DNA of 64,000 bases from Pseudomonas chlororaphis subsp. chlororaphis (GTDB lineage: Bacteria; Pseudomonadota; Gammaproteobacteria; Pseudomonadales; Pseudomonadaceae): positions 1,674,001 to 1,738,000 of the forward strand of contig NZ_CP027712.1 in NCBI RefSeq assembly GCF_003945765.1, read 5' to 3'. A program made the translations under genes and the position numbers. The notes beneath the pieces were generated by a model that worked only from the letters and a program-made list of their open reading frames with translations, made no database searches and had not been told where the DNA came from. Of the stretch, positions 5,511-25,644 are shown one piece after another. Each line of letters begins with the position of its first letter. Position 1 is the stretch's first letter.

Positions 5511-5533
5511 GGGCCGTTCAACGGCCCTTTTTT
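5511..5533 (+). terminator. Hairpin with T-run upstream of aceK
   Basis: GGGCCGT and ACGGCCC pair around a three-base loop and are followed by six T on the + strand. It would stop + strand (antisense to eamA) transcription before aceK. On the minus strand the same hairpin sits in the short leader of the EamA gene, next to its AAAGGAG. Confidence 0.6.
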
Positions 5534-5691
5534 CAGCAGGGCGAGAGTGTTGCCGAGAGACGGGGCGCGGGCAATCGCTATCTTGCGGTCGAATTGGTGG
5601 GATCCTTCTCTCTACGGAAAAATTGCACTTCTCCTGCACCCGGTTCACTGGCTAAGCTCAGGCCTTTCCGAATTCCCGCAGAGGTCTCACC

Positions 5692-7413
5692 ATGCCGCAG
5701 AAATGGCCCGCCGCCGATATCGCTCGAACGATCCTCGATGGCTTCGACGATTACCGCGAGCATTTTCGCCAGATCACCGACGGTGCCCGGGCGCGCTTCG
5801 AGCAGGCGCAGTGGCAGGAGGCACAGACCGCCTCGGCGGCACGGATCAACCTGTACGAGGAAAAGGTCAGCGAGACCGTGCAGCGGCTGCGTACGACCTT
5901 CGACCTGGAGACCCTGCTCGACGTCAATCAGTGGCCGCTGGTGAAAAGCGCCTATATCAGCCTGATCGACCTGCGCTTCGACGATGAGCTGTCCGAGACC
6001 TGGTACAACTCGGCCTTCTGCGGCCTGTTCAGCCATGACCTGATCAGCGACGGCTGCATGTTCATCCACACCACGCGGCCGAGCCTGCGCCGCGCCCGGG
6101 CCGCGCAGACCCGCACCTACCGGCCGCAAGGCCATCTGTCGACGATGCTCGAACAGATCTTCGTCGACTACAGCTTCAGCGAGGCCTACGCCGACCTGCC
6201 CGGCGACCTGCGGCGCCTGGAGTCGCAACTGCGGGAGAACCTGCCGGACTGGGTGTGCAAGGACCCGGAACTGGCGGTGGAGTTGTTTTCCTCGGTGCTG
6301 TACCGCAACAAGGGCGCCTACCTGGTGGGCCGCATCTACACCCACGACGAGCAGTGGCCGCTGGTGATTCCGCTGCTGCACCGCGAAGGGCGGGGGATCC
6401 AGATCGACGCGCTGATCACCGACGAAGCCGATGTGTCGATCATCTTTTCCTTCACCCGCTCCTATTTCATGGTCGACGTGCCGGTGCCGGCGGAGTTCAT
6501 CGGTTTCCTCAAGCGCATCCTGCCGGGCAAGCACATCGCCGAGCTGTACACCTCCATCGGTTTCTACAAGCACGGCAAGTCCGAGTTCTACCGGGCGCTG
6601 ATCAACCACCTGGCCAACACCGACGATCAGTTCATCATGGCCCCGGGCGTGCGCGGCATGGTCATGAGCGTGTTCACCCTGCCGGGCTTCAACACCGTGT
6701 TCAAGATCATCAAGGACCGTTTCTCGCCGTCGAAAAACGTCGACCGTGCCACGGTGATCGAGAAGTACCGCCTGGTGAAAAGCGTCGACCGGGTCGGGCG
6801 CATGGCCGATACCCAGGAGTTCGCCGATTTCCGCTTTCCCCTGGGCAAGTTCGACCCCGCGTGCCTGGAGGAACTGCTGGAAGTCGCACCGTCCACGGTG
6901 TCGGTGGAGGGCGATACGGTGCTGATCCGCCACTGCTGGACCGAGCGGCGCATGACCCCGCTCAACCTTTACCTGGACCACGCCAACCCGGCCCAGGTGC
7001 GCGAGGCGCTGGAGGACTACGGCCTGGCGATCAAGCAACTGGCCGCGGCCAACATCTTTCCCGGTGACATGCTGCTGAAGAACTTCGGCGTCACCCGCCA
7101 TGGCCGGGTGGTGTTCTACGACTACGACGAGATCTGCTTCCTTACCGAAGCCAACTTCCGCCACATCCCGGCGCCGCGTACCCCGGAGGACGAGATGGCC
7201 TCCGAGCCCTGGTATTCCATCGGCCCGCTGGACGTGTTCCCCGAGGAGTTCCCGCCGTTCCTGTTCGCCGACGCCGGGCAGCGCAAGCTGTTCGACCAGT
7301 TGCACGGCGAGTTGTACAACGCCGATTACTGGAAAGGCCTGCAGGAGGCCATTCGCGCCGGCAAGGTGATCGATGTGTTCCCGTACCGGCGCAAGGACCG
7401 GGATAACGAATAA
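5692..7413 (+). CDS. aceK: Isocitrate dehydrogenase kinase/phosphatase
   Basis: This 573-residue protein has the usual AceK length and architecture. AceK phosphorylates isocitrate dehydrogenase to divert carbon to the glyoxylate shunt during growth on acetate or fatty acids, and reverses this as a phosphatase in the same active site. The ATP-binding segment [20 protein letters not shown] lies near residue 317. The family blocks [20 protein letters not shown] and [20 protein letters not shown] are present. The ATG follows GAGGTCTC at suitable spacing. It is a single-gene unit; aceA and aceB are not in the window. Confidence 0.97.
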
Positions 7414-11657: not shown

Positions 11658-11883
11658 GGGATCGGCGATGTTGCGCCGACTACGCTTGCCGATGGGGCTA
11701 AACGCCGGCGTTTATGGCAAACTTCGCCGTTATAAATGCCGGCCCCGCGGTTTTGAGCGTTCGCCGCCCGGGCAAAGCGGAATAAAGCGATGTCAGGTCC
11801 TATTCCGCCAGTCGGGATAGACCATTTACGGTTTGGTACGACGGTGCCAATACCTTCTGCCTGAACAGAATAGAGGAACGACC

Positions 11884-13005
11884 GTGCATAACGTCGTCAT
11901 CAGCGGCACTGGCCTGTACACCCCGGCCAACAGCATCTCCAACGAAGAGCTGGTGGAGTCTTTCAACACCTACGTGCATCAGTTCAACGCCGATAACGCG
12001 CAAGCGATCGAGCGCGGCGAGGTTCAGGCCCTGACCGAATCCAGCGCGGCCTTCATCGAAAAAGCCTCTGGCATCAAAAGTCGCTTTGTCATGGACAAGG
12101 ACGGCATCCTCGACCCGCAACGCATGGCCCCGCGCCTGCCCGAGCGTTCCAACGACGAATGGTCGGTGCTCTGCCAGATGGCCATCGGCGCTGCCGAACA
12201 GGCCCTGCAACGCGCCGGCAAGACCGCCGCGGACATCGACGGGGTGATCGTCGCCTGCTCCAACCTGCAACGCGCCTACCCGGCCATCGCCATCGAAGTC
12301 CAGGAAGCCCTGGGTATCGAAGGTTTCGGTTTCGACATGAACGTGGCCTGCTCCTCGGCCACCTTCGGCATCCAGGCGGCCTGCAACAGCGTGCAACTGG
12401 GCCTGGCCCGGGCGATCCTGATGGTCAACCCGGAAGTCTGCACCGGCCATCTGAACTTCCGTGACCGCGACAGCCACTTCATCTTCGGCGACGCGGCCAC
12501 CGCGGTGATCATCGAACGGGCAGACCTGGCCACCTCGCCGTACCAGTTCGACATCATCAGCACCAAGCTGCTGACCAAGTTCTCCAACAACATCCGCAAC
12601 AACTTCGGCTTCCTCAACCGCGCCGCGGAAGAGGGTATCGGCGCGCCGGACAAACTCTTCGTGCAGGAAGGCCGCAAGGTGTTCCGCGACGTCTGCCCGA
12701 TGGTGGCGGAACTGATCGCCGAGCACCTGCAGGAAAACCAGCTGAACGTCAGCGACGTGAAGCGTTTCTGGCTGCACCAGGCCAACCTCAGCATGAACCA
12801 CCTGATCGTCAAGAAGCTGCTGGGCCGCGAGGCCACCGAAGAGGAAGCACCGGTGATTCTCGACACCTACGCCAACACCAGTTCGGCCGGTTCGGTGATC
12901 GCGTTCCACAAGAATCAGGACGACCTGAGCAGCGGCTCGCTGGCGGTGCTCAGCTCGTTCGGCGCCGGTTATTCGATTGGCAGTGTGCTTCTGCGCAAGC
13001 GTTGA
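11884..13005 (+). CDS. FabH-like beta-ketoacyl-ACP synthase III (PA3286-type)
   Basis: This 373-residue thiolase-fold condensing enzyme starts at GTG 11884 after AGAGGAACG; an upstream in-frame start at 11833 has no ribosome binding site. The catalytic triad is visible: Cys156 (NVACSSATFG), His298 (WLHQANLSMNHL) and Asn331 (YANTSSAGS). It is longer than housekeeping FabH (about 320 residues) and matches the type that P. aeruginosa carries as PA3286, reported to channel beta-oxidation acyl-CoA into fatty acid synthesis. That specific substrate is inference. An ECF sigma gene follows 65 bases downstream, an arrangement I recall from P. aeruginosa PA3286-PA3284. Confidence 0.9.
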   Translation: MHNVVISGTGLYTPANSISNEELVESFNTYVHQFNADNAQAIERGEVQALTESSAAFIEKASGIKSRFVMDKDGILDPQRMAPRLPERSNDEWSVLCQMAIGAAEQALQRAGKTAADIDGVIVACSNLQRAYPAIAIEVQEALGIEGFGFDMNVACSSATFGIQAACNSVQLGLARAILMVNPEVCTGHLNFRDRDSHFIFGDAATAVIIERADLATSPYQFDIISTKLLTKFSNNIRNNFGFLNRAAEEGIGAPDKLFVQEGRKVFRDVCPMVAELIAEHLQENQLNVSDVKRFWLHQANLSMNHLIVKKLLGREATEEEAPVILDTYANTSSAGSVIAFHKNQDDLSSGSLAVLSSFGAGYSIGSVLLRKR

Positions 13006-13070
13006 CAGTCTTATGGATCGCAGCCGCTGCTTCAGCGGTTGCGATCCTGGATTCCGATTACGAGGCATGA

Positions 13071-13685
13071 ATGTCCGCAGCTGACGACACGCAACTGCTT
13101 GAACGCCTGTTGGCCGGCGAGCAAAAGGCCTACAAGGAACTGGTCGGCACCTACCAGAGCGCCATGCGCGCCGTGGCCTACGCCATTGTCGGCCAGCGCC
13201 ACGCCGACGAAGTGGTGCAGGATGCCTGGCTGTCGGTGGTGCGCAACCTGGCCGGTTTCCAGGGGCGTTCCAGCCTCAAGACCTGGCTGTTGACCATCAC
13301 CGCCAACTCGGCAAAAAGCCGCTACAAACAGAACCGCCGCGAAGTCCTGCTGGATGACTTGCCGGCACCCCACGGCACCATCGGCGACGAGCGTTTTTCT
13401 TCCTCTGACGGGCACTGGCTGGTGGCGCCGTTCGCCTGGCACGCCGATACCCCGGAAGCCCTGCTTACCGAGGCCGAACTGCGCGAATGCCTGGAGCACA
13501 CTTTGCTGAGCCTGTCGGAACTGCAAGGCAGCGTGTTGACCCTGCGCGAGCGCCAGGGCCTGGAGCTGGAGGAGATCTGTAATCTTCTGGACATTTCCCT
13601 CTCCAATGTCCGGGTGCTGCTGCACCGGGCGCGGCTGAAGATTTTTGCTACGGTGGAGCACTTCGAGGAGACCGGCCAATGCTGA
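13071..13685 (+). CDS. ECF-family RNA polymerase sigma factor
   Basis: This 204-residue sigma-70-like protein has region 2 at about residues 20-90 (KAYKELVGTYQSAMRAVAYA; ADEVVQDAWLSVVRNLAGF) and region 4 at about 140-195 with a helix-turn-helix (ELEEICNLLDISLSNVRVLL). A roughly 40-residue linker separates them. Its stop codon overlaps the start of the zinc-finger gene downstream by seven bases, so the two are translationally coupled. It probably directs a small extracytoplasmic or membrane/lipid stress regulon; the target promoters are unknown. Confidence 0.93.
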   Translation: MSAADDTQLLERLLAGEQKAYKELVGTYQSAMRAVAYAIVGQRHADEVVQDAWLSVVRNLAGFQGRSSLKTWLLTITANSAKSRYKQNRREVLLDDLPAPHGTIGDERFSSSDGHWLVAPFAWHADTPEALLTEAELRECLEHTLLSLSELQGSVLTLRERQGLELEEICNLLDISLSNVRVLLHRARLKIFATVEHFEETGQC

Positions 13686-13912
13686 CCTGCAAGGAACAAG
13701 TGGCACGCTCCAGCGACTATCTCGATGGTCAGCTGAGCTTTCGCCAGCGCCTGATCCAGCGCCATCACCTGTTGTTCTGCCCCAATTGCCGGCGCTTCCT
13801 GCGGCAGATGCGCCTGATGCAGGCCACCTTGCGCAAGATGCCGGAAGGACCTGTCGCCGATATCGATGCGCTGGCCGACCGCCTGGCCGCCGAGCGCAAG
13901 CGCAACGCCTGA
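13679..13912 (+). CDS. Small zinc-finger anti-sigma factor (ZAS/zf-HC2-like)
   Basis: This 77-residue protein carries the exact H-x3-C-x2-C signature of zinc anti-sigma domains (His30, Cys34, Cys37), with Cys4 as a possible fourth ligand. No membrane segment follows, so it is a soluble single-domain ZAS. Overlap with the ECF sigma gene supports an anti-sigma role. Compared with typical anti-sigma proteins it lacks any sensor domain, which suggests redox or zinc sensing in the cytoplasm. Function is inferred from motif and context. Confidence 0.8.
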   Translation: MLTCKEQVARSSDYLDGQLSFRQRLIQRHHLLFCPNCRRFLRQMRLMQATLRKMPEGPVADIDALADRLAAERKRNA

Positions 13913-13930
13913 TTCACCCGACAATCCTCC

Positions 13931-14007
13931 CGTAACCGCTGAAGCCTCAAGGTCCTCAAGAGCGCGACCGCTTCGCGCTCGATCGCAGGCTTCGCCAGCG
14001 GCTACAG
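13931..14007. repeat. Degenerate REP-type palindrome
   Basis: The right arm CGATCGCAGGCTTCGCCAGC (continuing to 14006) is a good copy of the REP core. The left arm at 13931 has lost three bases (GTAACCGCTGAAGCCT). A small GAGCGCGACCGCTTCGCGCTC hairpin lies inside. It sits between the anti-sigma gene and the porin promoter. Confidence 0.65.
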
Positions 14008-14090
14008 GGTTTCGTTTTCCCCCTAATACCCCGCCGACCGCTCTAGTACAGGCTTTTTGCCTTATTTCGTTTGGAAGTAAAAAAGTTCCG

Positions 14091-14109
14091 CTGTCATCAA
14101 ATCTTTATC
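14091..14109 (+). promoter_or_regulatory. Possible Pho box upstream of the phosphate porin gene
   Basis: CTGTCAT at 14091-14097 is a perfect half-site of the PhoB box. The second half (around TCTTTAT) matches only weakly. It lies about 125 bases before the porin ATG, in AT-rich DNA. Known OprO/OprP genes belong to the Pho regulon, which favours the reading, but the site is imperfect. Confidence 0.4.
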
Positions 14110-14221
14110 TATCGGCAACTCCCCTGAAATAACCCGCCGCCAAGATTCCCTCCCAACACAAGCGGGCCTGACTCGCGTGTTTTTTCCAGCGCTACAGACC
14201 ACCAATTAGGGGAAATCTTCG

Positions 14222-15565
14222 ATGATCCGTAAGCACTTCGCCGGTTTTGCCGCCAGCGCCCTGGCCCTGGCAGTTACCGCCCAGGCTTTCGCTGGCACCG
14301 TCACCACCGATGGCGCCGATATCGTAGTCAAGACCAAGGGCGGCCTTGAGGTCGCCACCACGGACAAAGAGTTCAGCTTCAAGCTCGGTGGCCGCCTGCA
14401 AGCCGACTACAGCCGCTTCGACGGTGTCTACACCAAGAACGGTGACACCGCCGACGCCGCTTACTTCCGTCGCGCCTTCCTCGAACTGTCCGGCGTGCTG
14501 TACACCGACTGGGCCTACACCATCAACTACGACTTCTCCCACAACACCGGCGACTCCGAAAACGGTTACTTCGACGAAGCCTCGCTGGCCTACAACGGCT
14601 TCAAGCCGGTGTCGATCAAGGTCGGTCGTTTCGACCCGGACTTCGGCCTGGAAAAAGCCACCAGCTCCAAGTGGGTCACCGCGCCGGAACGTAACATCGC
14701 CTACGACATGATCGACTGGGCCAACACCCACCAGAACGGTATGGGCCTGCAGGCTTCCAGCACCTTCGCCGACTCCTTCTATGCCTCGGCCGGCGTGTTC
14801 AGCAAGGACACCGACGACACCGATGGCGACAGCGTCAAGCAGGTCAACGGTCGCTTCGTCTTCGCCCCGATGCACGATGCCGGCAACGTCCTGCACTTCG
14901 GTGTGAACGTGGCTTCGCGCGATGTCTCCGACACCGCGTTCGACTCCCGTTATCGCACCCGCATGGGCATGCGTGGCGTGGACACTCTCGGCGGTAACGA
15001 TGCCGGTGGTAATGGCAACCGTCCGGTGTTGGGCGGCAGCTCCTCTTCGCCGGCCGGTTCCTACGACCGCGACACCGCGCTGGGTCTGGAGGCCGCGTTC
15101 GCCATGGGCCCGGCCTCGATCCAGGGCGAATACATCACCCGCAAGACCAAGGCTGATTCCAGCGCTTACGAAGACATCAAGGGCCACGGTTTCTACGTGC
15201 AGGGCGCCTATACCCTGACCGGCGAATCCCGCGGCTACAAGGTGGGCAAGTTCGACGCCATCAAACCGGCCAACAAAGCCTTCGGCGCCTGGGAACTGTT
15301 CTATCGTTACGACAGCCTGACCGTGGAAGACGACAACATCACCACCGCCAGCCTGACCCGCGACGTCGGCGATGCCGAAGTCAAGGTGCACAACCTGGGT
15401 GTGAACTGGTACGCCAACGAAGCGGTGAAGATCTCCGCCACCTACGTCAAGGCCAAGACCGACAAGGTCACTAACGCCACAGTCCTCAGCGGTAGCACAC
15501 CGGCTGCCCGCACCGGCGACGACGACGGCGACGGCTTCATCATTCGCGCCCAGTACGTGTTCTGA
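14222..15565 (+). CDS. Phosphate/polyphosphate-selective porin (OprP/OprO family)
   Basis: This 447-residue outer-membrane protein has a signal peptide ending near AQAFA. The mature part begins with a short coiled region and runs through alternating beta strands to a C-terminal aromatic (RAQYVF), as expected for a 16-strand barrel. Family blocks include [38 protein letters not shown], and [20 protein letters not shown]. OprP and OprO form anion-selective trimers for phosphate or polyphosphate uptake under phosphate limitation. I cannot separate OprO from OprP by eye. The ATG follows GGGGAAATC, and a strong terminator follows the stop. Confidence 0.92.
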
Positions 15566-15623: not shown

Positions 15624-15650
15624 AGCCCCGCTCCGGCGGGGCTTTTTTTT
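15624..15650. terminator. Rho-independent terminator between convergent units
   Basis: AGCCCCGC pairs with GCGGGGCT over a four-base loop and is followed by eight T on the + strand. It ends the porin transcript and lies just past the stop of the convergent permease gene, so it may also delimit the tryptophan operon. Confidence 0.9.
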
Positions 15651-15664
15651 GCCCGGCCATTCGA

Positions 15665-16942
15665 CTAACGCCAGACCGGCAGCAGGTCGAAGCTGAACAG
15701 CAGATGGGCCAGGGCGTTGGCCAGGCCGAACAGCAGCACCAGGACGATCATCGGCGTGCCGCCCCAGACCCGGTACAGCGGGCTGGCGAAGCGTTTGCGC
15801 GAGGCGTGGGCGAGCAGGGCCGGGGTGATCACCGCCCAGACGGTCGCCGCCAGGCCGGCAAAACCGATGGCGAGGATGAAGCCTTCCGGCCAGATCAGCG
15901 CGCAACCGATCGGCGGGGCGAAGGTGGCCAGCGCGCTTTTCAGGCGGCCTTGGGGGCTGTCGTCGAAGCCCAGGGAGTCGGCGATGTAGTCGAACAACCC
16001 CAGGGTGACGCCGAGGAACGAACAGGCCACGGCAAAGTTGGAGAACAGGGTCAGCAGCAGGTCCACCCGGGCGCTGTCGAGCATGCTGCCCAGGGCGCTG
16101 ATCAGCACATCGATGGTGCCGCCCTGGCGGGCGATGTCCTTGAACTGCTCGCGGGGCAGGGTGCCCATGGTGCAGAGCATCCACACCGTGTACAGCACCA
16201 GGGCGATCAGGGTGCCGATCAGCAGGCAGTTGCGGATGCGCTGCGGGTCCTTGCCGTAGTGCTTCATCAGGCTCGGCACGTTGCCGTGAAAGCCGAAGGA
16301 GGTCAGGCAGAACGGCAGGGTCATGAACAGATAGGGCAGGTAGTCCGGTTGCGGGTTGCCGCGATCGAGCAAAACCTCTGGCTGCACATGGCCGAGCAGG
16401 CCGCCGAAGGTCAGGAAGAAGGCGAGGATCTTGGCACCGAACACCAGGGTGGTGATGCGGCTGACCGCCGCGGTGCTGAGCCAGACCACCAGGGCCACCG
16501 CCAGGGCGAACAGCAGGCCGCCGTTGCGCGAGGAAATCTCCAGGCCCAGATTGTGGGCGGTGTGACGGATCACCGAGCCGCTGGCCGAGATGTAGGCATA
16601 GGTCAGGATGTACAGGACGAACACCAGGGTGGCGCCGTTGAACAGGCTCCAGCGCCGGCCGATCAGGTCGCGGGTGATGGTCGAGAAACTCGCCCCCGGC
16701 CGGTAGTTGAGGTTGGCTTCGAGGATCATCAGCCCCGAGTGCAGGGTGCAGAACCACGACAGTGCCAGCACCGCGAGGGAACCTTGGAACCACAGGCCCG
16801 ACATCATCACCGGCAGCGAGAACATGCCCGCTCCGACAATGGTGCCGCCGATGATCATGGCGCCGCCGATGACCGAAGGCCGGCGTTCGGCGACCGTGCA
16901 GTGGGAGGTTGAAGGGGATGAAGCGATGGACGTACCGCGCAT
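15665..16942 (-). CDS. Aromatic amino acid permease (HAAAP family, Mtr/TyrP-like)
   Basis: This 425-residue inner-membrane protein has eleven hydrophobic segments. The HAAAP signature is at the N-terminus ([20 protein letters not shown]), and [20 protein letters not shown] lies in the middle, as in E. coli Mtr and TyrP. It should import tryptophan or tyrosine by proton symport. It is the last gene of the iaaM/iaaH/Rieske unit, 98 bases after iaaH, with a GC-rich hairpin between them. Context makes tryptophan the likely substrate. Confidence 0.9.
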
Positions 16943-16997
16943 GGCAAGGCCTGCAATGAAATTGTTATTGGAGGTAGCGAGGGTGCACCTCGGGTGT

Positions 16998-17031
16998 GCG
17001 GAAAACCGGCAGGCCGGCTCCCGCGCACCCG
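16998..17031 (-). promoter_or_regulatory. Structured spacer element between iaaH and the permease gene
   Basis: On the minus strand GGGTGCGCGG and CCGCACACCC form a 10-bp stem with one mismatch, enclosing a second hairpin (CCGGC/GCCGG). The inner sequence GCGCGGGAG...CCTGCCGGTTTTCC closely resembles the leader of the DUF3077 gene at 56464-56501. It could act as an RNA processing or attenuation element that sets permease expression apart from iaaMH; this is inference. Confidence 0.5.
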
Positions 17032-17040
17032 GGCGACGAT

Positions 17041-18384
17041 TCAGCGCAGAGCCAGCAGGCGGCTCAGTTGCTGCGCCATCTGTAGCAGCCGGTGGTCCTG
17101 CCCGGGCAAGGCGTCGAACGACAGCCCGACCGGCAGGCTGCCCGGCTCGGCCACCGGCACGCTGACACTCGGCGCCGCCAGGTTGCTGGCCGGGTCGGTG
17201 TTGCGCACGAAACGCTCGAAATGCTCCTGGGCGCCGCTGTCGCTCAGCAGCGGCGCGGTGCAGCTGACGGTCGGGTAGGCGATCAGGTCCAGCCGGTGCT
17301 GCTGGAACAGCCCGGCGTATTCGCGATCCAGGCGGATCTTGCTCATCAAGGCCTGCACGTAGTCTTCGTAGGAAATGGCCGGGCTCTCCAACTGTGCCAT
17401 CAGGGTCTTCTTGATCTGCGGGTCGCGGATCTGCGCCAGGATCTCGAGGAACCGCTCGCCACAGCCGGCCTTGAGCAGGAAGCGCGGGAAGTCGATGAAG
17501 AACTCGAAGATCGGCAGCGGGAACTGGATGCTTTCGTTGATCTCGCCGATCAGGCGGTCGTCCACCGGCACCATTTCCACGCCCTGATCGGCCAGGCTAT
17601 CGATCGCCGCGCGGCAATCGCTGTGCACCTTGGTCTCCAGCTCGGACCAGAAGAACTGCTGGGGAATGCCGATGCGCAGGCGCTTGGGCTCGGTCGGCGC
17701 GGCGCAGGACGCACCGGTCAGATGCCGATGGACGAACAGCGCGTCTTCCAGGCTGCGGGTCAGCAGGCCTGGCGAGTCCTTGGTCTGGGACACCGGGACG
17801 ATGCCGTCGCCAGGGTAGACCCCGGTGCTCGGCCGGAAGCCCACCACGCCGCAGAAGGCCGCGGGAATCCGCACCGAGCCGCCGGTGTCGGTGCCCACCG
17901 CGCACGGCACCAGGCCGGCGGCCACGGCCGCGGCACAACCGCCGCTGCTGCCACCGGCGCTGTGTTGCAGGTGGCGCGGATTGACCACCGCGCCGTAGCT
18001 CAGGTTGGCCGAGGTCACGCCGAACGACAGCTCGTGCATGTTGTTCTTGCCGGCGACCCGCGCGCCCAGCGCCCTGAAGCGCTGGACGATGCCGGCGTCC
18101 GCGGCCGGGTGGTAGTCGGCCAGGCCGGGGGTGCCGGCGGTGGTCGCCAGGCCACTGACATTGATGTTGTCTTTGAACGAAACCGGGATGCCGTAGAGCG
18201 GTGCCTGGCGCTGCTCTGGCGTGCCGGTGTCGCCGCTGAACGCCTGCGCGGCGAAGCTGATGAAGCTGTTCAGGTGCCCGGCGTCGGCGTATTGCTCGAG
18301 CAGCGCGCGGTGCCAGGAATCCAGGCAGAGGCTGCCCTGGCGAAACCCGTCAACGAGCGCTTCGATCGAAAGCTGGCTGTACAT
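17041..18384 (-). CDS. iaaH: Indoleacetamide hydrolase (amidase signature family)
   Basis: This 447-residue enzyme hydrolyses indole-3-acetamide to indole-3-acetate and ammonia. The amidase-signature Ser-cisSer-Lys triad is complete: Lys71 (PVSFKDN), Ser146 ([10 protein letters not shown]) and Ser170 ([16 protein letters not shown]). Length and blocks match IaaH of P. savastanoi (about 455 residues). Its position 36 bases after the tryptophan 2-monooxygenase gene supports IaaH over a generic amidase. The ATG at 18384 gives the expected N-terminus. Confidence 0.93.
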
Positions 18385-18420
18385 GAAAAAGTCTCAACGA
18401 AAGTCGGTAGGGGCCTGGGC

Positions 18421-20130
18421 TCAGCAATAGCGGAAGTGCGATTGCAGATCGAACAGCGGGTTGCCTTCGAGCAGTTCGCCGCCGAGGCTGGCGATCACCG
18501 CGCAGGCACCGTTCAGGGCGGTCTGTACCGCGCCTTCGGCCCAGCCGCCGGTAAACGAGCTGCCGCAGCCGGCCAGGTACAGGCCGGTGTCCTGCTGCGG
18601 GTCGAGGGCGGTCTTGAACTGATAGAACAGGCGCTGGGAGTACAGGTCGTCGCCGGGGAAGTTCAGCTTGAAGGCGCCCAGGGCCTGCTTGTCGGTGAGC
18701 CAGTCGTATTCCAGTACGTAACGCTGGTAGTCGCCGTCCAGCGGCACCAGGTGGCTAGCGAACTGCGGCGCGCTCATCGCCAGTTCGTCCACCAGGCGCT
18801 TGCAGCGCTGGACCTTGTCGGTCATCGAAACCATTTTGTGCGAGTCGTCTTCCCAGGTGTAACTGATCAGCACCACGCCCCAGGAGTCCGGGTCCTGCGG
18901 GGCGTAGTCCAGGCAGTAGACGCCCTTGACCAGGGTATCGGTCTGGATGTTCTGCGCCAGGCCATGTTTGAGCCAGAACTTGTCGCGGGTCAGGATGAAC
19001 AGCTTGGACGAGCCGACCATATGGGTTTCGTTGATCGCCCGGGCCACGTCGCGATTGACGAACTGCTCGGCCTGGGTGAGGCGCATGTTGACTTGCAGGG
19101 CGCGGGTGGTGGCGGTGGTGATCACCCGGTCGCAGCCATAGGTTTCACCATTGCAGCCTTGCAGCAGGATCTGCCCGTCGGCGCCCTTGCTGATGGATTC
19201 GATGCGCGTGCGGCAGATCCGGTCGCGCAGGGCGATGCCGTGGAATTCCTCGTCGGCGATTCGCTCCCAGAGGGTGGAAATGCCGTTGGGCACCAGCCGC
19301 TGGTTGACTTCGAAGGCGTTGATCACCAGCCGCAGGATCTCGGTGAACGAGGCCCGGTACACCGACTGGAACCCACCCGAGCCGATGCCCAGGGAACCGA
19401 ACAGGTGGAAGTCTTCCGGCTTGCGCCAGCGCTTGCCGCCCGGCGGGTTGTTCGAGGTGAAGATTTGCACCATGGCCGAGTAGAAGGAGTGGTCGCCAAA
19501 GCAGTCCAGGTAGCGTTGCCACTCCGGCTGCACTTCGGCGTATTGCTGTTTTTCCAGCAGGTCGGTGAGCAGCAGCGGCGGCGCCAGGAAAGTGCCGTTG
19601 TCCAGATGCACGCCTTCCTTGAGAAAGGCGTTCCAGCCCTGGTGCACGGTGTTGAAGATCGGCGGTGGATTTTCCCCGGCCGGCCAGTGGTGGGTTTCGC
19701 CACGGTAGTGGATTTCGGTGTCGACCACCCCAGGGTCGGGAAAGGCCTCGGTGGTGCCGATGCCGAAACGATCCAGGTAATGGAACAGGCCGACTTCGCT
19801 CGGCGGGAAGCGCATGGCGCCCATCTCGGCGATGAACTGCGGTTGTGTTTCGTCGAAACACTGGGTCAGGAAACGCCCGCCAAGGTGGTCTTTCGAGGCT
19901 TCGAACAGGGTGATGCGGGTGGCGCCGGCGCGCAGCAGTTCATAGGCCGCGATCAGGCCGCTGAGGCCGGCGCCGACGATACCGACGTGCTTGTCGGCGA
20001 TCGCCGGCGGCAGGTGACCGATGGCCTGGGTGGCACGGCGCAGGAACTGCCCATAGTCGTACAACAGGTCGATGTTGGGGAACGAGCGGGTGCCTTGGGT
20101 TTCTTCGAAACCGGAGTGGGAGGAGTTCAC
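18421..20130 (-). CDS. iaaM: Tryptophan 2-monooxygenase
   Basis: This 569-residue FAD enzyme oxidatively decarboxylates L-tryptophan to indole-3-acetamide. The dinucleotide-binding motif GIVGAGLSGL is at residues 50-59, followed by Glu77 at the end of the second strand and GGRF near 84. The blocks FIAEMGAMRFPPSEVGLFHY and CGSSFTGGWAEGAVQTALNG near the C-terminus are characteristic of IaaM and L-amino-acid oxidases. Length is close to P. savastanoi IaaM (557). It lies 18 bases after the Rieske beta gene, so it is cotranscribed with a dioxygenase, unlike classical iaaM-iaaH pairs. Confidence 0.93.
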   Translation of the reverse strand: MNSSHSGFEETQGTRSFPNIDLLYDYGQFLRRATQAIGHLPPAIADKHVGIVGAGLSGLIAAYELLRAGATRITLFEASKDHLGGRFLTQCFDETQPQFIAEMGAMRFPPSEVGLFHYLDRFGIGTTEAFPDPGVVDTEIHYRGETHHWPAGENPPPIFNTVHQGWNAFLKEGVHLDNGTFLAPPLLLTDLLEKQQYAEVQPEWQRYLDCFGDHSFYSAMVQIFTSNNPPGGKRWRKPEDFHLFGSLGIGSGGFQSVYRASFTEILRLVINAFEVNQRLVPNGISTLWERIADEEFHGIALRDRICRTRIESISKGADGQILLQGCNGETYGCDRVITTATTRALQVNMRLTQAEQFVNRDVARAINETHMVGSSKLFILTRDKFWLKHGLAQNIQTDTLVKGVYCLDYAPQDPDSWGVVLISYTWEDDSHKMVSMTDKVQRCKRLVDELAMSAPQFASHLVPLDGDYQRYVLEYDWLTDKQALGAFKLNFPGDDLYSQRLFYQFKTALDPQQDTGLYLAGCGSSFTGGWAEGAVQTALNGACAVIASLGGELLEGNPLFDLQSHFRYC

Positions 20131-20148
20131 AGGTAAGGGTCTCGGAAA

Positions 20149-20619
20149 TCAGATGATGAGCTGCAGGCTTTCAAACGCGCGGGAAGGGTTGAGCAGGAGG
20201 ACTTTCTTGCGCTGGATCTTCCACTGGCCGGCGAGGCACAGCAGTTGGTGTTCCACGGTCACCGGGTAATGCCATTCGCTGTCGCCCCGGGCTTCGCAAT
20301 ACAGCATCGGGGTCCGGCAATGGGCACTCAGGGCATCCGCATCGAGGCTGATCGTTGGCCGCTGGGCAATGTGCAGGCCGCGGCTCTTGGGCTGCTGCGA
20401 GAAGTTGCGGGCACTGGCCAGGCGGTTGATGCGCAGGGTGGTGAGGAAGCGGTCCTCATACAGCAGCGAGGATTCGCGCAACGGGCAGGGTTGGTCGTGG
20501 CGCAGCGGAATCCAGTAGTGGAAGTCGTCGCACAGCAGTTGTTGCCAGGCGTCGAAATCCTGTTGGTCGAGAAGCGCGATCTCTTGGTAGATCAGCTGTT
20601 CGAGGGGCGAGTTATCCAT
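20149..20619 (-). CDS. Aromatic-ring-hydroxylating dioxygenase, beta subunit
   Basis: This 156-residue NTF2-fold protein has the size and blocks of the small subunit of Rieske non-haem iron dioxygenases (LLCDDFHYWIPLRHDQPCPL; SSLLYEDRFLTTLRINRLAS; STPR-type C-terminus). The subunit stabilises the alpha-beta hexamer and does not carry metal. Its start overlaps the end of the alpha-subunit gene by eight bases, so the two are coupled. Confidence 0.9.
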   Translation of the reverse strand: MDNSPLEQLIYQEIALLDQQDFDAWQQLLCDDFHYWIPLRHDQPCPLRESSLLYEDRFLTTLRINRLASARNFSQQPKSRGLHIAQRPTISLDADALSAHCRTPMLYCEARGDSEWHYPVTVEHQLLCLAGQWKIQRKKVLLLNPSRAFESLQLII

Positions 20620-21913
20620 GGGCGGTCGATCCGTCTGGGGCCTGCATCAGTTGCTGCCAGGTGTTGTAGAAGTTGCGCATGGCTCGTTCGCTGGTGCCGG
20701 ACACCACCTGGGTCTGCTCAAAGGCTTCGCCCGGTTCGAACAGGCGGGCGACATTCACCCAGTCGTTGGCCTGGCTGCGCAGCCCGTCCATGGCCCGCTC
20801 GTACATCTCCACGTCGTCGTGGGCGACCATCGAGCATGGCGAGTTGATCAGGTTGTTGTACTGCACGGTTCTTTCCAGCAACTGCACGGGCGCGCCCACC
20901 AGCTCGAAGATCCACGACTCGACCACGGTCTCGCTGGCCGAGATCGGGCGGATCACCCGCAGGGTCTGGATCGGTCCCTTGACCATCAGGTTGGGGAAAT
21001 ACACGGTGTTGTGCCGGGTGTCGTCGAGGATCGCCGCGGCCTGGGTTTCGCCGTAGCTCTCGACCATCAGCTCCCAGTAGCCGGGAATGCTCGAATAGGC
21101 CTTGTGGATCGAGTTACTGACGCCGGTGTGGCCATGGCCGTTGGGCCAGGTACGGATGCCCATGGCGCTGAAGAACTCGTAGGACGCCATGAACGGCGAG
21201 AACAATTCCACGGCCATCGGCGGCTGGCCGTCGTGCCCGGTTTCCTTCCACAGGCGAATAGCTTCGCCGGCCGAGGATTCGTGGGCGACCATCGGGTGGC
21301 AGGTGTCGGTCTGGTTGTCGACCACCATCTTCCAGTTGCAGCGATGGCGGTGCAGCAAGGGCTGGCCGATGGCGCGCAATTGCCCCTGGGGCGAGCGCAT
21401 GACCATGTTGTCCAGGGTCGACAGCGAGTCGCCGAAGAACTCGCTGAAGCCAACACCTTGCTCCTTGAGGCGCACGAACACGAAGCCCCGGTAGTTCTCC
21501 ACCGCGGCCACCGGCTGCATGCCCTTGTGGGCGGCGCAGCTGCTGAGGTCGCAGTCGTCGTATTCCTTTTTCACTGGGATGCTCAGCAGCTGGCCGTCGG
21601 TCTTGAAGGTCCAGGCGTGGTACGGGCAGCGGATGAACCGGCCGACATTGCCTTGCGGCTCGGCCAGCACTTTCACGCCCTTGTGCGGGCAGCGGTTGTG
21701 CAGCACGACGATCTCGCCGTTTTTCTGCCGGACCATGGCCAGCGGTTGTCCGGCGATGTCGCCGGTGAAGAAGTCGCCGGTTTCCGGCACCAGGCTTTCA
21801 TGGCCCAGGTAGCACCAGCTGGCGGCGAATACCTGTTGTTGTTCTCGCTCGAAGAGCGACGGATCAAGGAACAGCGTGCGATGCACTTCCTTGCCGTTGA
21901 AGTAGTTGTCCAA
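20612..21913 (-). CDS. Rieske non-haem iron dioxygenase, alpha subunit
   Basis: This 433-residue catalytic subunit has a Rieske [2Fe-2S] site CPH-x18-CPYH (Cys75, His77, Cys96, His99). The mononuclear-iron segment is DNQTDTCHPMVAH, with His206 and His211 as ligands and Asp203 as the inter-subunit electron bridge. It should dihydroxylate or monooxygenate an aromatic ring with electrons from the adjacent reductase. Placed with iaaM and iaaH, an indolic substrate such as indoleacetamide or indoleacetate is likely, but unproven. It recalls IacC of the indoleacetate-degradation pathway by type only; iacA, iacB and iacE are absent here. Confidence 0.93.
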   Translation of the reverse strand: MDNYFNGKEVHRTLFLDPSLFEREQQQVFAASWCYLGHESLVPETGDFFTGDIAGQPLAMVRQKNGEIVVLHNRCPHKGVKVLAEPQGNVGRFIRCPYHAWTFKTDGQLLSIPVKKEYDDCDLSSCAAHKGMQPVAAVENYRGFVFVRLKEQGVGFSEFFGDSLSTLDNMVMRSPQGQLRAIGQPLLHRHRCNWKMVVDNQTDTCHPMVAHESSAGEAIRLWKETGHDGQPPMAVELFSPFMASYEFFSAMGIRTWPNGHGHTGVSNSIHKAYSSIPGYWELMVESYGETQAAAILDDTRHNTVYFPNLMVKGPIQTLRVIRPISASETVVESWIFELVGAPVQLLERTVQYNNLINSPCSMVAHDDVEMYERAMDGLRSQANDWVNVARLFEPGEAFEQTQVVSGTSERAMRNFYNTWQQLMQAPDGSTAHG

Positions 21914-21926
21914 CGAGGTTCTCTCT

Positions 21927-22874
21927 TTAGATGACCAGTTTCAGGCTTGGGCTTTTGGCCCGGGATACGCAGGGGTAGATCTTGTTGCTGCAGGCGGCCT
22001 GCTGCGGACTCATGATGAAGTCGCGGTGATCGACTTCACCTTCCAGCACGTCCAGCTCGCACACCCCGCATTCACCGCGACGGCAGTCGTAGAGCGGCTC
22101 CAGGCCGGCCTCTTCGAGGGCGTCGAGCAGGGACTGGCCGGGCTGCACCCGCAGGTCGACGCCGGAGTCCGCGGCGTGCACGGCGAAGCCGGGGTCATCC
22201 TCGGCCAGGCAGGTGTTGAAGACTTCGAAGTGGATGCGCTCGCGGGGAAAGCCCAGGCTCTGGGCATGGCTGAACACGTCGTTGAGCATGGCTTGCGGGC
22301 CACAGACGTACAGGCGGTCCCGGGATTGCAACTGGCCCAGCACCGCGGCCACCGACGGGCGCCCTTCGGCCGAGTCGGAGCAGTGCAGGCTCAGGCTGTC
22401 CTGCAACAGCTCGCGCATCTGCGTGGCATAGGCGGCGTCGCCCGCGCTCTTGGCGAAATAGTGCAGCCGCGCCGGGCGCTGCCGGGCTCGCAGATGGCTG
22501 AGGATGCCGGTCAACGGGGTGATGCCGATGCCGCCAGCGAGGGCGATGTCGGCGCCATCGCTGTCGTCCAGCTGGTAGTCGAAGGCATTGAACGGGCCGT
22601 CGAGCCGTACCTGATCGCCAACGCTCAGTTGGCGGATATAAGCGCTGCTGGGCGAGTCGGGGTTCAGGCGGATGGCGAACACCAGGCTGCCCGGGGGCAG
22701 CTCATGTTCGGCCAGTTCGACCCGGGAGTAGTGACGCCATTGCTCGAGCGTGGGAATCCACCATTTGAAGTGGGCCCCGGCGGTGGTCTCGCAGGGGGCC
22801 GGCACAAGAGGCGCCAGAGTGATTTCCTTGATGCTTGGCGAGAGCATCAGGCACTGGGTGATCTGGTAATTCAT
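21927..22874 (-). CDS. Rieske oxygenase reductase (FNR domain plus C-terminal 2Fe-2S ferredoxin)
   Basis: This 315-residue flavoprotein is of the phthalate-dioxygenase-reductase/VanB type. It has an FMN-binding beta barrel first, an NAD domain (ALAGGIGITPLTGIL near residue 140; LYVCGPQAML near 205), then a plant-type ferredoxin with CRRGECGVC (C-x4-C-x2-C) and a fourth Cys in YPCVSRAKS. It passes electrons from NAD(P)H to the Rieske centre of the dioxygenase, so no separate ferredoxin is needed. It ends 13 bases before the alpha-subunit start. Confidence 0.92.
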   Translation of the reverse strand: MNYQITQCLMLSPSIKEITLAPLVPAPCETTAGAHFKWWIPTLEQWRHYSRVELAEHELPPGSLVFAIRLNPDSPSSAYIRQLSVGDQVRLDGPFNAFDYQLDDSDGADIALAGGIGITPLTGILSHLRARQRPARLHYFAKSAGDAAYATQMRELLQDSLSLHCSDSAEGRPSVAAVLGQLQSRDRLYVCGPQAMLNDVFSHAQSLGFPRERIHFEVFNTCLAEDDPGFAVHAADSGVDLRVQPGQSLLDALEEAGLEPLYDCRRGECGVCELDVLEGEVDHRDFIMSPQQAACSNKIYPCVSRAKSPSLKLVI

Positions 22875-22888
22875 GGGGTGACTCGCTG

Positions 22889-23290
22889 TCAGCTTAACGG
22901 TGTTTCATGCAGGTACAGCCACTGGGCCGAGTGCTCATGGATGCGGATCACCACCACCGAGAGGCGCGAGGTTTCCTTCTGCTCCAGGCGATGGGTTTCC
23001 TTGTAGCGGATCGCCGCGCTGTGGCCTTCGTGCCACACGGTGTGCAGGTCGCTGACGAGGATTTCCAGGCCGGGGCGGGCACCGACGGCTCCGCGGAACA
23101 TCTGTTCGACCTGCTCGCGGCTGACGATGGCGCCCGCGGTGGTGACCATGCTGAAGTGCTCGGCGAAGGCCGGCAGCAGGCGGTCGATGGCGGCGGCGCC
23201 GTTGCCGTCCTGGTCGGTGAAGACCGCGTGGATCAGGTCGTGGACCGCATGGATGCTGTGTTTGGCCTGTTCAACGATTGTGTTGTGCAT
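22889..23290 (-). CDS. NTF2-like (SnoaL/DUF4440-type) protein
   Basis: This 133-residue protein fits the NTF2-like fold: an N-terminal helix pair (AVFTDQDGNGAAAIDRLLPA), a loop at AEHFSMVTTAGAIV, and C-terminal strands (GHSAAIRYKETHRLEQKETS; AQWLYLHETPL). It overlaps the MFS gene by 20 bases and precedes the reductase gene by 14. It is a second NTF2-fold protein in the operon beside the Rieske beta subunit. It may be an isomerase, cyclase or accessory protein for the oxygenated product; no catalytic residues can be assigned. Confidence 0.8.
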   Translation of the reverse strand: MHNTIVEQAKHSIHAVHDLIHAVFTDQDGNGAAAIDRLLPAFAEHFSMVTTAGAIVSREQVEQMFRGAVGARPGLEILVSDLHTVWHEGHSAAIRYKETHRLEQKETSRLSVVVIRIHEHSAQWLYLHETPLS

Positions 23291-24638
23291 GACATTCCTT
23301 TTGCGTGGTCAGGTTGCTCATCTGCAACAGGGGTAACAGACCCATCACCGCCGCGATGACGAAGGTCAGGTGATAGGCCGGGGTAGACGCCAGGCGGGCG
23401 AGCAGCAGGTTGTAGATCATCAGGAACAGCGCGGCGCCGATGCTGAAGGACATCTGCCGGTTGATGTTCCAGATCACGCTGCCCTTGTGGGTATCGGCAC
23501 CTTCGAAATCCATCAGCGAAGTGGTTTGCGCGGTATTGGCGCCGATGCCGCCGCCGATGCCCATCAGGCAGTAGGCGATGACGATGATCGGCAGGTCGGC
23601 GGCGCTGTCGACCAGGTACAGGGTGGCGATGCCGGCGCTGTGCAGGAGCATGCCGAGGGTGAACAGGCGCCGGGCGCCGAAGCGGTTGTAGACCCGGCCG
23701 CAGACCAGCATGGCGATGAAGGCGCCGCTGGCGTAGAGGATCATGAACATGCCGGTCAGCTGGGCGCTGAAGTGCAGGCTGTTCTGCAGGAAGAAGATGC
23801 TCAGCAGGTTGACCCCGGTGAACACCCCGGGAATCGCGTAATAGATGAAGATCGAGGTACTGAGCTTCTTGCTCTTGAGCAGGCTCAACTCGACGATGGC
23901 GTTGTCGCAGCGGCGGTAGTGCAGGACATACAGCACCACGCAGGTGACCCCCAGCATCAGGCAGCTCAGGGCGGCCAGCGGCGGGTAGTCGCCGCCGTAC
24001 AGCGACATGCCCATCAGCAGGCTGCCCAGGGCCGCGCTGACCAGCAGCAGGCCCTTGATGTCCGGGCGCGCCAGGCTGGCGGGCCGGGCTTCCTTGATCC
24101 ACAGCCAGGACAGGGCGGCGGCGATCAGCGAGAACGGAATATTGCTGTGGAACACCCAGCGCCAGGAGCTGCTGTCGACGATCACGCCGCCGATGGTCGG
24201 CGAAATGGCCGGGGCGATCAGGGCGACGGCCATCACCAGGGTGGAGATCTTGGCCCGCTGCGGGCCCTGGAACAGGTTGAAGGTCAGGGCCTGGCCCACC
24301 GGGATCAGCAGGCCGCCGCCGATGCCCTGGACGAAACGCCAGATCACCAGTTCATGGAAGCTGCCGGCCATCCCGCACATCCACACGGCGGTGCTGAACA
24401 CCAGCATCGAGGCGGTGAGGGTTTCGCGGCTGCCAAAACGTCCGGCCAGCCAGGTGCTCACCGGAATGATCAGGGTCAGGCCGAGAATATAGGCATTGGC
24501 CACCCAGGCCACGGATGAAGTCGAGACGTGCATCTCATGGGCAATACTCGGTAAAGCCACGGCCGACATGAATATGTTTATACAGTCGATAAAGAACCCG
24601 ATGAGGAATATAAGAGCCACTTTGTAGCGATAAGTCAT
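23271..24638 (-). CDS. MFS exporter (DHA2/EmrB-like)
   Basis: This 455-residue inner-membrane protein starts at ATG 24638 after AAAGGGAGATC; an in-frame start at 24665 is less likely. It has many transmembrane helices, the DHA motif LAGRFGSRETLT in the loop after helix 2, RFVQGIGGGLLIPVGQAL, and motif C-like sequence in helix 5 (APAISPTIGGVIVDSSSWRW). This subfamily exports drugs and hydrophobic metabolites. As first gene of the operon, divergent from a LysR regulator, it probably exports the pathway product or a toxic indole. Confidence 0.88.
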   Translation of the reverse strand: MTYRYKVALIFLIGFFIDCINIFMSAVALPSIAHEMHVSTSSVAWVANAYILGLTLIIPVSTWLAGRFGSRETLTASMLVFSTAVWMCGMAGSFHELVIWRFVQGIGGGLLIPVGQALTFNLFQGPQRAKISTLVMAVALIAPAISPTIGGVIVDSSSWRWVFHSNIPFSLIAAALSWLWIKEARPASLARPDIKGLLLVSAALGSLLMGMSLYGGDYPPLAALSCLMLGVTCVVLYVLHYRRCDNAIVELSLLKSKKLSTSIFIYYAIPGVFTGVNLLSIFFLQNSLHFSAQLTGMFMILYASGAFIAMLVCGRVYNRFGARRLFTLGMLLHSAGIATLYLVDSAADLPIIVIAYCLMGIGGGIGANTAQTTSLMDFEGADTHKGSVIWNINRQMSFSIGAALFLMIYNLLLARLASTPAYHLTFVIAAVMGLLPLLQMSNLTTQKECHAQHNR

Positions 24639-24756
24639 ATGATCTCCCTTTTGCGGCGGGATCATAGGAGCGATAGACCGAGGGTGTCGATACGCCTATA
24701 CTTGAAACATTGTTTGGTGGGATTTGACAATGATTTACAACACGGTGAGCTATAAC

Positions 24757-25644
24757 ATGCACACGCATCTAAATCGCGTCCAGACATTCCTGGCGGTTGT
24801 CGATTTCGGTTCCTATACCAAGGCGGCCAACTACCTGTGCATCAGCAAAGCCATGGCCAGCCTGCATGTCAAGGCGCTCGAGGAAGTTTTGTCGGCGACC
24901 CTGTTAATCCGCAATACCCGCAATATATCCCTGACAGAAATAGGCCAGGACTTTTATAACGAGTTCAAGGGCATTGTCGCGGATATCGACAATGCCTTCG
25001 AGAATGTCCTGCATGGGCATAATCGTATTTCTGGAAAGTTGCGTTTCAGTTCAACTAGTGAGTATGGCGAGCGCTATATACTGCCGATCATTTCCAAGTT
25101 CACCGAGCGTTATCCGGAGATCCGTCTTTGTTATAACTTCAACTCTTCGTTGAATGATCTGGTGGCGGAAAAACTCGACCTGGTGATCCGCCTGGGCAAC
25201 CTCGCCGACTCGGCTTTCAAGAGCCGCAAGCTGGCCGACTACGACATCGTCCTGGTGGCCAGCCCGGACTTTCTGGCGCGCCATCCGGTGGTCGAGCCCC
25301 TGGACCTGAACAGCGTGCCGTGGATCGCCAACAGCAACCTGCAAGGGCCGACCAACTGGACCCTGAGCCACCCGCAACGGGGCCAGGTCGAAGTCAGCGG
25401 GCCCAATCATTTCGAATCCAATTCCTCCACCGCCATTCGCGCCATGACCCTGTCGTCCCTGGGGGTGTCGGTACTGCCCGGCTGGGTGGTCGAGGACGAC
25501 CTGGCCAGCGGCCGGCTGGTGCGCCTGCTGCCCGACTACGCCTTGCCTTCGCAGTCGGTGAACGTGGTGTTTCCCAACAGTTCGCACCTGCCGCACAAGT
25601 CGCGGGCGTTCATCGATTTCCTGTTGCTGCACCTGGGGCAGTGA
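24757..25644 (+). CDS. LysR-family transcriptional regulator
   Basis: This 295-residue regulator has an N-terminal winged helix (HLNRVQTFLAVVDFGSYTKA; ISKAMASLHVKALEEVLSAT) and a LysR substrate-binding domain from about residue 90. I chose ATG 24757 because GGTGAG lies nine bases before it and the family N-terminus begins there; TTG 24724 and ATG 24730 are in-frame alternatives. It is divergent from the MFS-Rieske-iaaMH operon, so it is the likely activator or repressor, responding to tryptophan or an indole. The 24639-24756 spacer should contain its operator; no clear site was resolved. Confidence 0.9.
   Translation: MHTHLNRVQTFLAVVDFGSYTKAANYLCISKAMASLHVKALEEVLSATLLIRNTRNISLTEIGQDFYNEFKGIVADIDNAFENVLHGHNRISGKLRFSSTSEYGERYILPIISKFTERYPEIRLCYNFNSSLNDLVAEKLDLVIRLGNLADSAFKSRKLADYDIVLVASPDFLARHPVVEPLDLNSVPWIANSNLQGPTNWTLSHPQRGQVEVSGPNHFESNSSTAIRAMTLSSLGVSVLPGWVVEDDLASGRLVRLLPDYALPSQSVNVVFPNSSHLPHKSRAFIDFLLLHLGQ

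Follow-up and report, generated by a model that had tools for sequence, protein, structure and literature searches.

A Pseudomonas chlororaphis operon that joins iaaM and iaaH to an IadD-family Rieske oxygenase, and its possible oxidised, exported auxin product

Introduction

Adjacent homologues of iacC and iacD, profiled in about 180,000 genomes, fall into two types, iac-like and iad-like (PMC9613470), in a paper whose main text does not mention iaaM. The genes iaaM and iaaH, for their part, are taken as auxin-synthesis genes in PMC3390384, PMC3644233, PMC4767706 and PMC8719888. The locus described here holds genes of both kinds: it is an operon of Pseudomonas chlororaphis subsp. chlororaphis in which the genes of a Rieske oxygenase lie directly upstream of iaaM (18-bp gap). 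It is located in a stretch of 64,000 nucleotides (NZ_CP027712.1, positions 1,674,001 to 1,738,000; G000:C1:1674001-1738000), called the window below, within a genome of 6.8 Mb. The simplest account, and one that we hold to be rather probable, is that this operon makes an oxidised form of the auxin indole-3-acetic acid (IAA) and exports it.

The closest known enzyme is IadCDE of Variovorax, which begins auxin degradation. Its product was given as 2-oxindole-3-acetic acid (oxIAA) in PMC10374108, where IAA treated with IadCDE gives no colour with the Salkowski reagent. A preprint (PMC12633357) uses deuterium and 18-O labelling to argue that the enzyme is a monooxygenase whose product is C10H9NO3, probably a 2,3-epoxide and not oxIAA; in this view, IadJ oxidises the hydrate of the product, C10H11NO4, to dioxindole-acetate.

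In Pseudomonas, IaaMH was found in all studied strains of the P. chlororaphis group and in two strains of the P. koreensis group, and was read as auxin synthesis (PMC4767706). Expression of iaaH of P. chlororaphis 30-84 is lowered in phenazine producers, and a phenazine-minus mutant with more IAA is mentioned as unpublished (PMC4727817). Searches of open-access full texts gave, among the matches listed, no account of iaaMH together with a Rieske oxygenase, and none was known to an earlier annotation made from the letters of the window (hereafter the sequence-only reading).

Results and discussion

The oxygenase and the other proteins of the operon

Among solved structures, the alpha subunit matches 9o71 (498 bits) and 7yls (494 bits) far ahead of the third, a biphenyl dioxygenase (132 bits). 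9o71 is IadDE of Variovorax paradoxus CL014 (PMC12633357), and 7yls is taken as the IadD of PMC10374108, that is, the same protein from another strain. For Variovorax IadD, the metal ligands and nine IAA-pocket residues have been named, two of the nine being iron ligands (PMC10374108). The alpha subunit aligns with IadD without gaps (offset 10) and keeps the Rieske ligands C75, H77, C96 and H99, the 2-His-1-Asp iron site (H206, H211, D367) and eight of the nine pocket residues, including the two iron ligands as well as Lys312 and Arg319, the equivalents of pocket Lys322 and Arg329. As judged from these alignments, alpha is an IadD-family enzyme and not an orphan oxygenase. The sequence-only reading, which did not name this enzyme and compared the locus with classical iaaM-iaaH loci and with iac, has to be corrected here, iad being closer than iac.

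Its identity to the alphas of Pseudomonas sp. NFIX28 and P. chlororaphis PCL1601 is 97% and 95%, respectively. The alphas from operons like this one (18 of the 35 rows of the tree) form one clade with a support of 100/100, nested among the alphas of catabolic iad loci. More distant Pseudomonas alphas (36–38% identity; L044-L062) differ from IadD at Phe251 and Lys322.

The other assignments are of uneven strength. The permease scores 679.6 bits with the tryptophan permease model NF007789 (cut-off 515). IaaM has the tryptophan 2-monooxygenase 4iv9 as its top solved match (733 bits), and Arg98, Lys365 and Trp466, important residues of 4iv9, are identical in the alignment. The top model of the amidase, whose gene is adjacent to iaaM, is indoleacetamide hydrolase, at 441.6 bits, below the cut-off of 532. 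The beta subunit is 35–41% identical to the beta genes of ten closer iad loci; the reductase carries a C-terminal Fer2 domain, and the Pseudomonas operon reductases are 33–38% identical to iadC of the Sulfitobacter locus L089. The NTF2-like protein has a weak SnoaL/NTF2-like match, below cut-off, and PA1314 (1tp6) as nearest solved structure (E 2e-21). The exporter passes the cut-off of Pfam MFS_1 and has EmrB as its top solved relative.

The operon lacks the partner genes of catabolic iad loci

Operon loci, comprising 17 close loci and two Pantoea plasmid loci (L083, L084), were compared with 13 loci whose alpha is 38–59% identical (seven of the 24 alpha relatives described below, three plasmid loci and three from a class-wide search), using tblastn with the iad proteins of Sulfitobacter as queries; the query source, L089, is itself one of the 13. 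In none of the 19 operon loci did this search find any of iadF to iadJ. In the comparison set, iadJ is found in all 13 loci and iadF in nine, one of them at 34% only, whereas lysR, mfs, ntf2, iaaM, iaaH and the permease gene have no match there at E 1e-15. In the source genome, no IadI-like match was found at E 1e-5, in a search run without a positive-control genome and weak alone, and the 11 IadF-like matches reach only 27–34%. The nine genes of the locus include no further catabolic gene, the genome not having been searched for iac genes as such, and neither a MarR gene nor IAA uptake genes occur in the operon, which has LysR, MFS and tryptophan permease genes instead. Related iad-like alphas (55–58%) are also found on plasmids of marine Sulfitobacter, Roseibium/Labrenzia and Ruegeria, and the two loci examined, L088 and L089, both show iadC-J.

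Conservation across genera

Relatives of alpha were collected from 24 loci, and 17 of them have an alpha with at least 66% identity (L009-L024 and L030). The six-gene core from lysR to beta (lysR, mfs, ntf2, reductase, alpha, beta) is found in all 17; iaaM is present in 16 (not in Marinomonas L021), iaaH in 15 (not in L021 and L024) and the permease gene in 14 (not in L021, L023 and L024). These counts include genes split into two pieces, namely lysR (126-1012) and iaaM (5516-7250) of L022 from Pantoea wallisii, and alpha of L030 (10001-11300) from Photorhabdus noenieputensis, which reflect decay or assembly errors. Since synteny recurs across the 17 close loci, a chance grouping is excluded.

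The eight-gene order is found in Pseudomonas, including P. chlororaphis PCL1601 (L010), and in Photorhabdus and Pantoea, and is shortened in Xenorhabdus. Both Pantoea plasmids carry all eight genes, the exporter being unannotated in one. Of 72 plasmid records with an alpha match, two exceed 60%, both from Pantoea; IaaM is found in 157 plasmid records, mostly from Agrobacterium. A class-wide search at E 1e-100 found the alpha in four of 369 genomes, source genome included. In both Xenorhabdus loci, a gene for a PF00891 O-methyltransferase (L023:7825-8796 and L024:7895-8869) lies between ntf2 and the reductase gene, which are adjacent in the other operon loci. O-methyltransferases of this family are frequent in the tailoring of secondary metabolites.

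In 398 Pseudomonas genomes, an alpha search at E 1e-60 gave matches in 34, of which 11 are at 83–100% and 23 at 36–38%. All 11 loci of the first group have iaaM, beta, reductase, ntf2 and a piece of mfs. IaaM, searched at E 1e-100 (more distant IaaMs being missed), was detected in 13 genomes: these 11 and two others (G384, G094), whose iaaM-iaaH genes have no oxygenase genes in 19 kb around them. The gall and symbiosis plasmid loci compared below show no oxygenase either. Of the 13 Pseudomonas genomes with an IaaM match, 11 have an IadD-type oxygenase in the same operon. The operon IaaMs form their own clade (100/100), apart from six other IaaMs; the tree requires three label changes, only since the second copies L079 and L080 were labelled "other". 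Pseudomonas is separated from a Photorhabdus-Pantoea-Xenorhabdus group in each of the trees of alpha, IaaM and MFS (support of that group in the MFS tree 97/87), and Marinomonas joins this group in the alpha and MFS trees. The parts of the operon have travelled together.

A proposed pathway and its alternatives

Taken as a whole, the pathway can be viewed as follows. The permease would take in tryptophan, which IaaM would convert to indole-3-acetamide and IaaH to IAA. The reductase, alpha and beta, acting as an IadCDE-type system, would then add one oxygen to the indole C2-C3 bond of IAA. Because IadJ is absent, the product should halt before dioxindole-acetate, at the C10H9NO3 stage, as a hydrate, an isomer or perhaps a lactone closed by the side-chain carboxylate. 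The MFS exporter would secrete it, the NTF2-like protein encoded beside the exporter could aid export or handle the reactive product, and LysR would switch the operon. Gene content, conservation, phylogeny, the conserved pocket and the presence or absence of the metabolic genes are observed, whereas the reactions, the direction of transport and the product are inferred. Making and secreting are favoured because an exporter and a tryptophan permease are present. Also in favour, P. chlororaphis 30-84 carries iaaMH and yet gave no auxin signal with the Salkowski reagent (PMC3390384), which IAA does not colour after treatment with IadCDE (PMC10374108); the O-methyltransferase gene of both Xenorhabdus loci points the same way. 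The outline of the sequence-only reading (tryptophan import, IaaM and IaaH, indole oxidation, export) is still the best one, although it needed changes concerning the comparison system, catabolism and the unit of genes. If this pathway is true, having iaaMH is not the same as making auxin. The product would then escape Salkowski tests, and enzymes of a family known from the breakdown of auxin would have been turned to biosynthesis.

Several observations weigh against this account. The operon occurs in few genomes: 11 of 398 in Pseudomonas and, in the family of the Photorhabdus locus, one of 149, that of the locus itself. The exporter scores 209.4 bits with TIGR00711 (DHA2/EmrB), under the curated cut-off of 230.2, and its role in export is a prediction. 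IAA was reported from P. chlororaphis O6 (PMC3390384) and GP72 (PMC3644233), so that oxidation of IAA is not complete in every case. It is for PCL1601 that the exact operon was confirmed, and strains 30-84 and O6 may differ in this. In the pocket, Leu211 of IadD is replaced by Gln (Gln201) in all operon alphas. As the same Gln occurs in relatives at 51–57% identity that sit in catabolic loci, it is by itself no mark of a new substrate. The loci of Xenorhabdus stockiae and Marinomonas spartinae also count on the negative side, and each lends itself to an alternative.

The first alternative is that the oxygenase acts on indole-3-acetamide and not on IAA, IaaH acting later or on a side branch, with export of an oxidised, possibly ring-closed acetamide. 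The X. stockiae locus (L024) has iaaM and the oxygenase, its genome gives no IaaH match at E 1e-40, and its alpha has, besides the Gln common to all operon alphas, a second pocket change, a Leu at the position of Phe251. The second change and the missing IaaH match suggest that IAA is perhaps not the substrate in X. stockiae. However, iaaH is kept in 15 of the 17 close loci, the pocket Lys and Arg are retained, and the Gln is shared with relatives from catabolic iad loci whose expected substrate is IAA; this alternative seems unlikely.

Slightly less likely again is that the operon works as a valve, making IAA and destroying the excess and so setting auxin release, as the contrast between 30-84, with no auxin detected, and the auxin producer O6 could suggest. 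Synthesis and destruction in one transcript would be wasteful. Nothing in the tight junctions, or in the four terminator-like sites, none of which lies between metabolic genes, points to separate control. The exporter and the Xenorhabdus O-methyltransferase fit a product, not a sink.

It is improbable that iaaM and iaaH are plain auxin genes that share only a transcript with an oxygenase for another aromatic compound. In favour of this view, the Marinomonas locus (L021) consists of the six genes from lysR to beta, those for IaaM, IaaH and the permease being absent, and the genome has no IaaM match at E 1e-20 and an amidase match at only 34%; as the oxygenase is present there and an IaaM match is not, it would work without IaaM somewhere. 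The conserved IAA pocket and the main split shared by the alpha, IaaM and MFS trees speak against it. The Marinomonas enzyme could oxidise IAA from outside. A set of RND-type efflux genes, named by eye, comes after the operon in L021.

Finally, a catabolic route from tryptophan via IAA toward anthranilate or catechol, which the sequence-only reading had allowed for and which would recall the IadD relatives that begin IAA catabolism (PMC12633357), is rejected as very improbable because the IadD partner genes of degraders, iadF to iadJ, are missing from the operon loci, with the source-genome searches and the exporter in place of MarR and uptake genes pointing the same way.

A separable exporter module

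The LysR-MFS-NTF2 genes are a separable module. A profile of 12 operon NTF2 proteins, searched in 149 Pseudomonas genomes, matched in 72 at E 1e-5. In the 22 genomes with matches at E 1.6e-34 or better (a chosen cut), six have an alpha (G000, G019, G047, G049, G055 and G097; in five of these, lysR and all but a piece of mfs fall outside the stretch covered), 15 have lysR-mfs-ntf2 without alpha or iaaM, and G086 has ntf2 alone. Modules without metabolic genes (L133-L147) therefore account for 15 of the 21. Four weaker NTF2 matches were also inspected: in L150-L152 the neighbours are MFS and LysR genes at 35–42% identity, which is not the case in L149.

The six metabolic genes, from reductase to permease, behave as a cassette that is present or absent at the same site. 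The source DNA aligns with L139 up to window position 22902 and again from 15653, L139 having 34 bp between these points and the same neighbours (kas-like 96%, porin-like 93% and GNAT-like 89%; labels by eye). With L141, the match also ends at 22902, and although the kas-like and GNAT-like neighbours are common to both, the DNA further on is altered. Another such site lies next to glpD-like and ABC-transporter genes (by eye); there, alignments of L012-L014 with L134, L135, L137 and L138 run to the ntf2 end and resume just past the permease gene (five pairs). The eight genes that the sequence-only reading took as one operon do recur in order, but they are not indivisible, the module often occurring without the six metabolic genes. 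The operon of P. frederiksbergensis AS1 (L019) is located away from the glpD-like site and has a transposase-like open reading frame downstream (L019:16865-18343, by eye).

In the MFS tree, the cassette label needs five changes, and well-supported branches make at least four of them necessary; L019, which has the cassette, groups with four cassette-less loci. Since the oxygenase part is shared by Photorhabdus, Pantoea, Xenorhabdus and Marinomonas, repeated cassette loss is the more economical explanation; against it, the still more distant L150-L152 lack this part, and independent gain may also have occurred. In L134 and L135 (genomes G135 and G046), a run of 31 bases located at the ntf2 end or immediately behind it agrees in 26 with the reductase start of L019, some of these bases belonging to the ntf2 end; the score is 37, compared with 30 and 23 for the highest of 500 shuffles. 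Their match to the permease end is not above shuffles, L136, L137, L138 and L140 have no scar match above shuffles, and L133 lacks the marker used. A deletion scar is thus suggested in only two of the seven loci. GC content is 0.647 in the cassette, 0.635 and 0.640 in the flanks, 0.629 in MFS-NTF2 and 0.568 in lysR. With no contrast for the cassette, base composition gives no signal of its recent import. No exact direct repeats of at least 7 bases were found at the cassette ends (about 100 bases each).

Limonene epoxide hydrolase has an NTF2-like fold, and the NTF2-like protein was considered as a comparable enzyme reserved for what the oxygenase makes; this idea is weakened because NTF2-exporter loci without an oxygenase exist. 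The module could be an older efflux pump that the cassette has put to use. It may also protect, in which case its retention would be expected if the product is one against which protection is worthwhile. A tentative extension, which we regard as possible though clearly less probable than export of an oxidised auxin as such, is that the oxidised auxin made by the cassette is secreted and inhibits growth, with LysR-MFS-NTF2 as its resistance module; strains that have lost the cassette, with the module still in place, would be resistant non-producers. This would be analogous to known antibiotic and bacteriocin polymorphisms, and would assign the indole-3-acetamide "auxin" genes found in P. chlororaphis and related strains to an antibiotic-like pathway. 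As the exporter module stays constant while the cassette is cleanly present or absent, matched strains are available in which the function of the product can be studied.

Layout of the locus

The open reading frame listing shows eight minus-strand genes at 15665-24638 of the window and a divergent LysR gene, all where the sequence-only reading had placed them (Table 1). The tight spacing that it described is likewise seen: MFS and NTF2 overlap by 20 bp, gaps of 14 and 13 bp follow, alpha and beta overlap by 8 bp, and the remaining gaps are 18, 36 and 98 bp, so that only the one before the permease exceeds 36 bp.

Table 1. Features of the operon and its surroundings (positions in the window)
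Feature	Position	Strand	Remarks
LysR-type regulator	24730..25644	+	Divergent from operon; listed open reading frame starts at TTG 24724, ATG at 24730
Sigma-70-like promoter candidate, TCGACA-18-TATGAT	24661..24690	-	Consensus match only; precedes MFS start
MFS exporter, DHA2-like	23271..24638	-	ATG at 24638, AGGGAG close upstream
NTF2/SnoaL-like protein	22889..23290	-	Nearest solved structure PA1314 (1tp6)
Rieske-system reductase, IadC-like	21927..22874	-	FAD/NAD domains, C-terminal 2Fe-2S
Rieske oxygenase alpha, IadD family	20612..21913	-	TTG start
Rieske oxygenase beta	20149..20619	-	Ring-hydroxylating beta family match
IaaM, tryptophan 2-monooxygenase	18421..20130	-	GTG start
IaaH-like amidase, indoleacetamide hydrolase	17041..18384	-	Adjoins iaaM
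Trp/Tyr permease family, tryptophan permease (Mtr-type)	15665..16942	-	Family match
Six-gene metabolic cassette	15654..22901	-	Without counterpart at same site in L139
Terminator-like stem	15624..15643		Just past permease; T-run found for + strand

Promoter-like sites number four on both strands, for 1.1 expected; the two on the minus strand are at 24690-24661, before the MFS start, and at 23611-23584, within the MFS gene. Of the four terminator-like sites, only one is on the minus strand (24628-24616); it is weak and falls where the MFS gene begins. KAS III-like, sigma-factor-like and porin-like open reading frames (11833-15565, plus strand; named by eye) flank the operon, and KAS III-like and porin-like ones flank the cassette-less module of L139 too.

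Comparison with known systems

The Variovorax iad locus (PMC10374108, PMC12633357, PMC9613470) is the closest described system: the alpha, beta and reductase families and nearly all IAA-pocket residues are the same, and the reductase-alpha-beta order is that of three plasmid iad loci. The operon differs from it by having no iadF-J, MarR or IAA uptake genes, by having iaaM, iaaH, tryptophan permease, LysR and MFS genes, and by an alpha that belongs to a separate clade within the iad radiation.

Oxygenase-less iaaM-iaaH loci, namely those of the gall-associated Pantoea plasmid pPATH, a Rhizobium plasmid named as Ti, a Paraburkholderia symbiosis plasmid and the two Pseudomonas, share adjacent iaaM and iaaH genes and an IaaM at 56–58% identity. 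Unlike the operon, they have no match to the oxygenase, NTF2 or tryptophan permease in the stretches L085, L086, L096, L098 and L099; L097 carries iaaM alone. The classical iaaMH operon is a stand-alone pair, whereas here the Rieske genes adjoin it and the IaaM clade is separate.

The iac locus of P. putida 1290 has an amidase gene and is not known to carry iaaM. It resembles the operon in its adjacent Rieske-type alpha and beta genes, but it serves to break IAA down to catechol, and its regulator is of the MarR type (PMC9613470). The LysR-MFS-NTF2 trio of Pseudomonas has the same three genes in identical order, without metabolic genes in 15 close and three distant loci. The operon is a new combination of known families, spread over several genera, with a cassette polymorphism.

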